A DNA stretch of 50,911 nucleotides from contig JAMOQG010000061.1 of assembly GCA_027064135.1 (NCBI GenBank), forward strand, positions 1-50,911, given 5' to 3'. The notes under the pieces are model-generated. The model did no database searches and was not told the origin of the DNA. It worked only from the letters and a program-made list of their open reading frames with translations. How positions within the stretch are numbered: position 1 is the first letter of the stretch; the number at the start of each line of letters is the position of its first letter. Both the position numbers and the translations under genes were made by a program. This DNA comes from Peptostreptococcaceae bacterium (GTDB taxonomy: Bacteria; Bacillota; Clostridia; Peptostreptococcales; Acidaminobacteraceae). Below, piece after piece: positions 8,943-10,618 of the stretch.

Positions 8943-8971
8943 TTTAAACAAATGTTCGTTTGTGATATTAT
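8943..8971 (+). promoter_or_regulatory. candidate extended -10 promoter of ruvA
   Basis: TGATATTAT (extended -10, TATTAT at 8966-8971) has TTTAAA at 8943-8948, 17 nt upstream. The expected transcription start near 8978 would place the ruvA ribosome site almost at the mRNA 5' end. It would also leave the upstream GTG at 8975 untranscribed. Confidence 0.45.
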
Positions 8972-8980
8972 TTAGTGAGA

Positions 8981-9019
8981 GGAGGGAGTCGAGTACGAGT
9001 CTGCTTGACTGATAAAATG
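8981..9019 (+). promoter_or_regulatory. ruvA ribosome binding site split from its ATG by a hairpin
   Basis: GGAGGG at 8981-8986 is the only good Shine-Dalgarno, but the RuvA-like reading starts at ATG 9017, 30 nt away. Exactly between them, AGTCGAGTA (8987-8995) can pair over nine positions, two of them G-U, with TGCTTGACT (9002-9010) around loop CGAGTC. Folding removes 24 nt and leaves GATAAA, a normal 6-nt spacing. This resembles the T4 gene 38 case, where a hairpin brings a distant ribosome site into position. It is inferred from sequence only. Confidence 0.6.
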
Positions 9020-9607
9020 ATAAATTATGTTAAAGGATATATAAGAAAAGTTGATTTGGATTATATTGTAATAGAAAATAACAATATGGGTTATAAAATA
9101 AACACTTCAAAATCAACGATAGATGATCTTATATTGATTGCTAAAGATGAAATGGTTTTGATTAATACAGTAATGATTGTAAGAGAAGATGATATTAGTT
9201 TATTCGGTTTTTTAACTGAAGATGAACTTGATGTTTTTAATTTATTAAGAACGGTTTCAAATGTGGGATCAAAAAGTGCAATTAGAATGTTATCTGGAAT
9301 GCACTATATGGAAATTGTGAATATTATTAAAAATAATGATCATAAATCTTTAACGAAAGCAAAGGGTGTTGGTACTAAAACTGCAAAACGTATTATTATC
9401 GATTTAAATGAAAAAATGGATAAAAGATTTCCTGAAGTTAGTACAGTTTATGGAGTTAAAAAACAGAATCTAATTAATTCTGATGCTCTTGAAGCATTAA
9501 TGGCTTTAGGCTATTCACAAAAGGAATCTGAAAATGTTTTAAATGAATTTGATAATAAAAATTTAAGTGTTGAAGAGCTAATTAAAAAAGCTTTAAGCTA
9601 TTTTTAG
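9017..9607 (+). CDS. ruvA: Holliday junction branch migration protein RuvA
   Basis: Tetrameric DNA-binding subunit that holds Holliday junctions for the RuvB motor. From ATG 9017 the protein is 196 residues, the normal size. It starts MINYVKGYIRKVD, matching the usual RuvA N-terminus. An OB-fold comes first, then helix-hairpin-helix segments (LRTVSNVGSKSAIRML and AKGVGTKTAKRIIIDL), then the C-terminal RuvB-binding domain (ALEALMALGYSQKESE). A GTG-initiated version from 8975 would add 14 residues not seen in RuvA and covering its own ribosome site, so I reject it. ruvB follows after 9 nt. No ruvC is in the window. Confidence 0.95.
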   Translation: MINYVKGYIRKVDLDYIVIENNNMGYKINTSKSTIDDLILIAKDEMVLINTVMIVREDDISLFGFLTEDELDVFNLLRTVSNVGSKSAIRMLSGMHYMEIVNIIKNNDHKSLTKAKGVGTKTAKRIIIDLNEKMDKRFPEVSTVYGVKKQNLINSDALEALMALGYSQKESENVLNEFDNKNLSVEELIKKALSYF

Positions 9608-9616
9608 GGGTTATTT

Positions 9617-10618
9617 ATGGATGATAGATTTATTACACCGAAATTTAATGAAGAAGATTTGAAAATCGAAAAATCTTTAAGACCACAATCTTTAAATGAA
9701 TATGTTGGTCAAAGTAAAACTAAACAACAACTTGATATATTTATGAAAGCTGCAAAAATAAGACGTGAATCATTAGATCATGTTTTACTTTATGGACCGC
9801 CAGGTCTTGGTAAAACAACTTTAAGTCATATTATTGCAAACGAAATGGGAGTAAATATTAAAGTTACTTCTGGGCCTGCAATTGAAAAAGCTGGAGATTT
9901 AGCTTCGGTATTAAATAAATTAAGACCAAATGATGTTTTATTTATTGATGAAATACATAGACTTAATATGAGTGTTGAAGAAGTATTATATCCTGCAATG
10001 GAAGATTATAATCTTGATATAATTATAGGAAAAGGACCAGGAGCAAAATCAGTAAGAATTGAACTTCCAAAATTCACTTTAATTGGTGCTACTACTCGTG
10101 TTGGTGATTTAACATCTCCTTTAAGAGATAGATTTGGAATGATTTGCAGATTAGAAATGTATTCTGATGAAGAGCTTAATCAAATTGTATTAAGGTCAAG
10201 TAGTATTTTAGATGTTGAAATTAAAGAAAATGCTGCAATTGAGATTGCGAGGAGATCTAGAGGAACACCAAGAATTGCAAATAGACTTTTAAAACGAGTA
10301 AGAGATTATGCATTGGTAATTGGTGATGGAATAATTGATAAAAAAATTACTATGGAAGCACTTAGTATGCTTGAAATTGATAATATTGGACTTGACAAAA
10401 TTGACAGAAAAATATTAAAATCAATTCTTTATAAATTTAGTGGAGGGCCTGTTGGACTTAATACTTTGTCTGCTGCAACAGGTGAGGAAATAACAACTAT
10501 TCAAGATGTATATGAACCGTTTTTAATAAAAAACGGATTTATTCAGAGGACACCAAGAGGAAGAATTGTTACTGATCTTGGTAAAAAACATATTGAAAAC
10601 AATGAATTTGGTGATTAA
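9617..10618 (+). CDS. ruvB: Holliday junction branch migration ATPase RuvB
   Basis: AAA+ hexameric motor of the RuvAB complex, 333 residues, full length. Walker A GPPGLGKT is at residues 60-67, Walker B is FIDEIHR, sensor I is [18 protein letters not shown] with the arginine finger region, and a winged helix follows at the C-terminus ([13 protein letters not shown]). The ATG follows TAGGGGTTATTT, a modest ribosome site. The SpoIID-like gene starts 1 nt after its stop and uses a ribosome site inside the end of ruvB. Confidence 0.97.

Follow-up and report, generated by a model that had tools for sequence, protein, structure and literature searches.

In the leader of gene 38 of phage T4, a hairpin shortens the spacer between a distant Shine-Dalgarno sequence (SD) and the start codon, and class C group II introns insert after terminators. 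In Clostridium tetani, D5/6 motifs of the group II intron C.te.I1 stand before genes and supply part of the downstream translation start; in the sections of that account consulted, unspliced RNA predominates (75-95%), remnants lie near other genes and the word 'Shine' does not occur (PMC3919590). In Clostridioides difficile, self-splicing in the 5′ UTR of an element made up of a c-di-GMP aptamer and a group I intron sets the ribosome-binding site relative to the start codon, as stated in the part of the report consulted (PMC3984707). Nothing on SD-directed group II introns, or on an SD in domain VI, is described in the parts of the literature searched, which took in few subscription journals.

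The window analysed here, a stretch of 50,911 nucleotides, carries a ruvA gene whose leader can be compared with each of these systems. As in T4 gene 38, a hairpin shortens the spacer between SD and start, but the ruvA hairpin descends from the 3′ end of an intron. As with class C introns, a general expression signal is the insertion site of the introns to which the leader is related; here this signal is an SD instead of a terminator, an anti-SD EBS1 apparently recognises it, and the hairpin lies inside the intron. The C. difficile element likewise has self-splicing in the 5′ UTR governing the position of the ribosome-binding site, but it is a group I ribozyme that carries a ligand aptamer (PMC3984707), whereas for the ruvA element neither a ligand nor splicing is known. 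C.te.I1 shares with the introns described below the placement of D5/6 before genes and a contribution to the downstream translation start, but in the account consulted its start codons, as annotated, are within D5/6 and splicing joins reading frames into one (PMC3919590). In the present introns, by contrast, domain VI holds an SD and not a start codon and the target is an SD, and at ruvA there is a tail only, with the ATG at 9017 lying 8 nt past the end of the remnant at 9009 and thus outside D5/6. The tails in the sister genome and the complete relatives match the Rfam families RF00029 and RF02005; the window copy matches neither. Of the known systems, C.te.I1 comes closest and the C. difficile element next; the ruvA leader is a fossil of the SD-inserting lineage, probably still in use. 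The features of the locus are as follows.

8943..8971, + strand: putative ruvA promoter region, read by eye
8943-8948, + strand: -35-like TTTAAA, read by eye
8946-8959, + strand: SOS-box-like AAACAAATGTTCGT between the -35 and -10 of ruvA, read by eye
8963-8971, + strand: extended -10-like TGATATTAT, read by eye
8977..9009, + strand: group II intron 3′-end remnant (3′ strand of domain VI, ending ..CTGCTTGAC), from 92-93% identity to contigs C43, C116 and C229 of the sister genome
8980..8985, + strand: AGGAGG, apparently an intron-derived SD now serving ruvA, from sequence reading and comparison with the sister genome
8987..8995, + strand: 5′ arm of the predicted bridging hairpin, from folding and spacing comparison
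9002..9010, + strand: 3′ arm of the predicted bridging hairpin, holding both changes relative to the sister genome, from that comparison and folding
9010..9016, + strand: putative former 3′ exon TGATAAA, the downstream part of the original SD after its splitting (GAGG^TGATAAA), from the same 3′ exon at the flagellin-like gene of the sister genome and the unoccupied GAGG^TGATAAATATG site of the window's own genome
9017..9607, + strand: ruvA, start ATG 9017
9617..10618, + strand: open reading frame downstream in the presumed operon, which we take from its sequence to be ruvB

A hairpin occupies the space between the SD and the ruvA start codon

The 9-bp hairpin with two G-U pairs that the original prediction had placed exactly between ribosome site and start codon, 6 nt from the ATG, was recovered in both coordinates and pairs. 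GGAGGG occupies 8981-8986, the stem 8987-8995/9002-9010 follows directly (pairs AT, GC, TA, CG, GT, AT, GC, TG and AT, closing a 6-nt loop), and 6 nt (9011-9016) lead to the ATG at 9017, so that the spacer counted from AGGAGG measures 31 nt raw and 7 nt once the stem is looped out. In a fold beginning at 8977, the hairpin stem is the minimum free energy (MFE) structure (-10.5 kcal/mol, pair probability about 0.9) and AGGAGG is unpaired with a probability of 0.92-0.97 at 37 °C; in silico, an overlong spacer is thus normalised by a stable hairpin that leaves the SD free in a transcript from this position. With two additional 5′ nucleotides (fold of 8975-9060), the stem probability was 0.63 at 37 °C. 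A different structure beat the hairpin in a fold of 8970-9030 (MFE -11.2, z -1.54, 15 of 200 shuffles being equally stable), and the hairpin was not the MFE structure in ruvA transcripts starting further upstream. The stem had also been expected to vary with temperature. In the model this does not apply to an mRNA from 8977 (0.92 at 20 °C, 0.88 at 55 °C), whereas for a transcript from 8975 the stem probability is 0.38 at 20 °C and climbs to 0.75 at 55 °C; the transcript start therefore matters. Stems of at least 9 bp in the same frame arose in 662 of 200,000 mononucleotide shuffles of 8986-9016. Taken within the window alone, the ruvA stem is moderately unlikely to be a product of chance, and the recurrence of the same arrangement elsewhere, described below, is stronger evidence for it than this shuffle test.

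The predicted conserved start of RuvA was borne out by its relatives: among 30 loci retrieved, the listed leaders run up to a start codon that aligns with residue 1 of the RuvA query (L087 and L110, both truncated by contig ends, are exceptions), which points to ATG 9017 as the likely start. The reading frame is open from GTG 8975 through 8975-9016 into ruvA, and automatic annotation may wrongly add 14 residues. Going by the -10-like box, the 5′ end of the mRNA would fall at 8977, close to the SD. A -10 element setting the 5′ end at the ribosome site, as proposed earlier, thus agrees with our reading of TGATATTAT, and its position is conserved in some relatives. Relatives' ruvA genes have ordinary leaders and a promoter similar to that of the window gene, and five of them (L091, L094, L103, L104 and L105) carry a similar SOS-like box plus a -10. 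The SOS label follows the LexA consensus; going by this box, SOS-type transcriptional control of ruvA is plausible.

The ruvA leader descends from the tail of a group II intron

The ruvA region was compared with 61 genomes, among them the window's own genome (G000) and the sole other genome of the genus available (G001). Window positions 8977-9026, or their first 42-45 nt, recur three times in G001 (C43, C116 and C229), always near a contig end. The three copies are 92-93% identical to the window tail, lie immediately 3′ of a domain V/VI (RF00029, 53.5 bits each) and directly precede the ATG of unrelated genes, which we judge from their translations to be flagellin-like, ATPase-like and of a secreted S-layer type. 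A 23-nt leader pattern allowing up to 3 mismatches occurred three times in G001 and once in G000, with no second copy of the tail in the latter. Related introns with a short domain VI share the 3′ end CTACTCGAC; the repeated stretch of about 34 nt is thus the 3′ strand of domain VI and lies inside the intron.

The window copy combines identity to the intron 3′ end with the right boundary and an SD-type 3′ exon following it, and on this comparison the ruvA leader is shown to descend from a group II intron tail. It is not a functional intron: no Rfam family (including RF00029 and RF02005) matched the window at gathering score, no domain V was found there by Rfam or motif search, the 5′ end GTGCG, domain I and reverse transcriptase (RT) were absent by Rfam and by a motif search of the 2600 nt upstream, and the presumed branch A position is a G (9003). 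This G and a T at 9006 are the two changes that separate the window stem from that of G001. Both are on the 3′ arm and both give G-U pairs, so the compensatory changes looked for in 8987-8995/9002-9010 did not appear. G001 contigs end on either side of the ruvA leader, at window 8942 and 9039 (ends of C157 and C137; L013 and L002), so that the assembly has a break over window positions 8943-9038, and no full-length tail-type intron with a 5′ end was found in G001. Two RF02005 matches in that genome were considered as the body of the tail-type intron and could not be linked to it. In G000, seven RF00029 matches at contig ends (C19, C52, C80, C96, C121, C126 and C154) belong to another group II intron, which has neither the SD nor the hairpin tail and was set aside as a source.

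The insertion target is a Shine-Dalgarno sequence

Two of the three G001 genes have intron-free orthologues in G000, TCTTAGAGG^TGATAAATATG and ATAGTGAGG^TGAGGAAAATATG. These empty sites read AGAGG^TGATAAATATG and GTGAGG^TGAGGAAAATATG, against CTCGAC|TGATAAATATG and CTCGAC|TGAGAAAATATG in the occupied counterparts, and thus place the insertion point inside the SD (GAGG^TGA). Loci elsewhere at which both intron ends can be seen agree with this. In G013, a single-contig genome of the same family, the 5′ exons end AAAGAGGTG, TTAGAGGTG and ATTGAGGTG and the 3′ exons read GAAAATATG, GAAAATG and GTCGTATG; in G1029 the 5′ exon ends TATGAGGTG and the 3′ exon reads ATATCTATG. Three G013 loci and one G1029 locus have 5′ exons ending ..GAGGTG|, with the 3′ exon starting 4-6 nt before the ATG. 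When the exons are joined in silico, 10 of 11 loci regain an SD core, which is 4-8 nt long and lies 4-9 nt upstream of the ATG (the exception is G1093; the 5′ exon of G613 is visible for 3 nt only). Judged from these exons and empty sites, the introns are shown to insert inside SDs.

CACCTC, the complement of GAGGTG, is found at intron position 197 in both G013 and G1029; the corresponding position reads CACCTGG in G807 and TTTCCTT in G613. Because of its position and complementarity we take CACCTC to be EBS1, making an anti-SD sequence the candidate EBS1 of complete members. CACCUC belongs to the anti-SD of 16S rRNA. Of 13 sites, 9 have a -10-like box that ends 3-14 nt upstream of the target hexamer, compared with 67 among 179 background genes with an SD (p 0.037; the sites are not independent, and window positions 8966-8971 are among the 13), and insertion may favour SDs near a transcript start.

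Domain VI carries a probable replacement Shine-Dalgarno sequence

In other Bacillota-type genomes, the long domain VI of related introns includes a second SD together with an arm complementary to the intron 3′ end. A model built from nine tails (R1, E ≤ 0.001) matched 3 of 3, 68 of 391 and 92 of 398 genomes, many of the listed scores resting on domain V alone. Of 164 loci entered into the classification, 11 had no recognised domain V and 19 no recognised 3′ end; with these 30 and the repeats taken out, 116 distinct tails were left. Of these, 18 satisfied a rule that requires an SD and, after it, an arm complementary to the 3′ end. A start codon with an open reading frame lay within 12 nt of the intron end in 16 of these 18 tails versus 4 of the other 98 (Fisher 3.9e-14); the selected tails are not all independent, since L178 and L180 represent one gene in related genomes, and L084 and L136 have a 3′ exon in common. 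Seven of the 18 had trained R1, and the start codon was present in 6 of these 7 and in 10 of the 11 others. One selected tail (L242) looks like a false positive, while the rule missed the eroded L131 and L130, and a permease copy in G428 was dropped for its degenerate domain V.

Among 20 SD-to-ATG strings compiled for having this arrangement, the raw spacer of 27-33 nt became 7-11 nt with a stem of at least 6 bp looped out in 18, in line with the original proposal that the hairpin bridges SD and start and restores normal spacing. For three G013 rows the script picked another stem, and a hand count with GTCGAG/CTCGAC gave 9, 7 and 8. The remaining two strings are eroded. Relatives that keep the ribosome site but lose the pairing had been named beforehand as evidence against the hairpin; one of the two (G482 C75b) retains GGAG with a 5-bp stem, and the other (G428 L209) has lost both SD and stem to erosion. 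The arm varies by lineage (GTCGAG, GTTGAG and, in a different register, GAGTAG). In the eight f48 tails, 95.8% of cells were paired for the hairpin (22-46% when slid) and 87.4% for an alternative, extended stem (36-47% when slid), values that shuffles reach as well, and neither structure showed a two-sided, compensatory change. Support for the hairpin across tails is thus recurrence, not covariation.

In silico, domain VI adopts either the extended stem, in which the SD faces the pyrimidine-rich 5′ strand of the domain and is hidden, or the hairpin, which leaves the SD free 7-11 nt from the ATG; the two are mutually exclusive because each needs the intron 3′ end. Forced folds gave, for hairpin/extended stem in kcal/mol, -22.7/-20.2 (G001), -20.7/-20.2 (G013), -28.4/-29.0 (G1029), -23.2/-23.4 (G428), -22.1/-25.5 (G455) and -18.0/-29.2 (G613). 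The two lie within 2.5 kcal/mol of each other in 4 of 6 tails, and in G613 the extended stem is better by 11 kcal/mol. Tentatively, and with some doubt, domain VI may be modelled as a two-state switch between splicing and translation. In one fold the 5′ strand would hide the SD during formation of the stem that holds the branch point and the 3′ splice site. The second fold would have the arm beside the SD capture the intron 3′ end, blocking splicing and setting the SD at the proper distance. The ruvA leader would then be this switch minus its SD-hiding half, fixed ON. An EBS1 that matches the anti-SD of the ribosome would make ribozyme and ribosome competitors for the same SDs, and translation could set splicing and mobility.

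A related domain VI (L172/L208, G1122:C2:14864-14980) carries both an SD and an ATG (AAGGAAAGGAAGGAATCAATATG), and the frame of this ATG continues across the presumed 3′ splice site and on into the open reading frame that follows, as is reported for the start codons in D5/6 of C.te.I1.

Origin and use of the ruvA leader

Our main reading, with a probability of roughly 0.85 for the explanation as a whole (including the replacement SD, the deletion and the reliance of ruvA on it), is that the ruvA leader is the tail-only remnant of an SD-inserting group II intron. In complete members, an anti-SD EBS1 would direct insertion such that the 5′ exon ends in the target's own SD and the intron separates this SD from the start codon. 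The long domain VI of these members would supply a replacement SD followed by the arm complementary to the intron 3′ end; with arm and 3′ end paired, the replacement SD would be free 7-11 nt from the start codon and unspliced RNA could be translated, while splicing would bring the original SD back together. At ruvA, the bulk of the intron would have gone, probably through a deletion between exon SD and intron SD that left SD, hairpin and ATG. Homology beginning at the SD (8977) and a promoter like those of relatives fit such a deletion. Stem residues would have been retained here and splicing residues not. Because insertion split its original SD, ruvA now probably needs the intron tail for translation. 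Ribosomes most likely start at ruvA across the 31-nt gap by way of the hairpin, and in the model they would do so constitutively on an mRNA that begins at 8977. What we infer from the comparisons above is the route of the deletion, translation past the hairpin, the dependence of ruvA on it, and former splicing and mobility.

The original prediction, in which the hairpin could make ruvAB translation conditional, missed the origin of the leader, which comes from the 3′ end of a group II intron and is not a control element built for ruvA. A dedicated regulator making ruvAB translation conditional on temperature or a bound protein would make sense of an SD too distant from the ATG without the stem, and of the modelled rise in stem probability from 20 to 55 °C in a transcript from 8975. 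We consider it highly unlikely, since the same element precedes flagellin-like, ATPase-like, secreted-protein and other genes, the stem from 8977 stays at about 0.9 over the same temperatures, and ruvA has ordinary leaders in relatives. It is also quite unlikely that the remnant is neutral and ruvA is translated without the hairpin, be it from GTG 8975, from TTG 9005 or, at a low level, with no proper SD. The youth of the remnant, still 92-93% identical to the G001 copies, and the frame open through the leader from GTG 8975 would agree with such neutrality, but both stem changes keep the pairing, SD and stem persist through copies at several stages of decay, GTG 8975 sits upstream of the SD, and the alignment of RuvA relatives begins at ATG 9017.

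The position of the repeated stretch on the 3′ side of introns, and its occurrence alone at ruvA, might also suggest an exon, that is, a mobile or conserved leader hosting intron insertions. Introns lacking the stretch have the same CTACTCGAC end, however, and the stretch is absent from both empty sites in G000, which makes this reading extremely improbable. The remnant of an SD-inserting intron is thus the reading that we retain. It would mean that a mobile intron lineage uses the ribosome's recognition sequence as an address and supplies a substitute, making insertion tolerable at many genes, and that intron decay is a route to a 5′ UTR hairpin that a gene ends up relying on. Intron fossils may then also be found among other hairpins that separate an SD from its start codon, and complete members would make a simple system for studying competition between splicing and translation in bacteria.

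Distribution and decay of the intron family

A pattern scan of a collection of 84,980 species returned one stretch, in a Thermoproteota record, and the same scan of viral contigs returned none. The G001 tail matched three plasmid records, over query positions 20-65 (the domain V part) only, and no phage; the G013 intron matched 14 plasmid records and one phage record, and in the four plasmid introns read of these 14 (L284-L287), domain VI lacked the SD-plus-arm arrangement and the 3′ end had no ATG. Among 393 genomes of the order, four matched the leader pattern (G000, G001 and two with 3 mismatches), and a G1029-type pattern was found in 3 of 26 genomes.

The loci form a decay series in which every member has the SD and 3′ end, the stretch by which they were found. 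G013, G1029 and G613 have domains I-IV, domain V and an RT, and are thus group II introns; their RT open reading frames encode 467, 430 and 427 aa (RVT_1 checked in L060 only), and G807 has an RT motif and is about 280 nt shorter. RF02005 matched L060, L200 and L205-L207, and RF00029 scored over its cut-off in L060 and L200, whereas domain V of G013, below the Rfam cut-off, was seen by alignment and R1. Both ends without an RT motif were found in L203 and L204, and domain V plus tail with no recognised 5′ end in L062, L081, L084, L061b, L209 and L210. The tail stands alone twice, each time before an open reading frame: in the window and at L280 of G1029; at the latter, domain VI is fused to the opening 9 nt of the intron. 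Short elements with the GTGCG end, domain V and tail occur in L061a and L085. Those in L061 (about 150-380) and L085 (about 1780-2010) measure roughly 250-300 nt, with the GTGCG end, a shortened domain I, domain V and the SD tail, and are possibly a small non-autonomous form.
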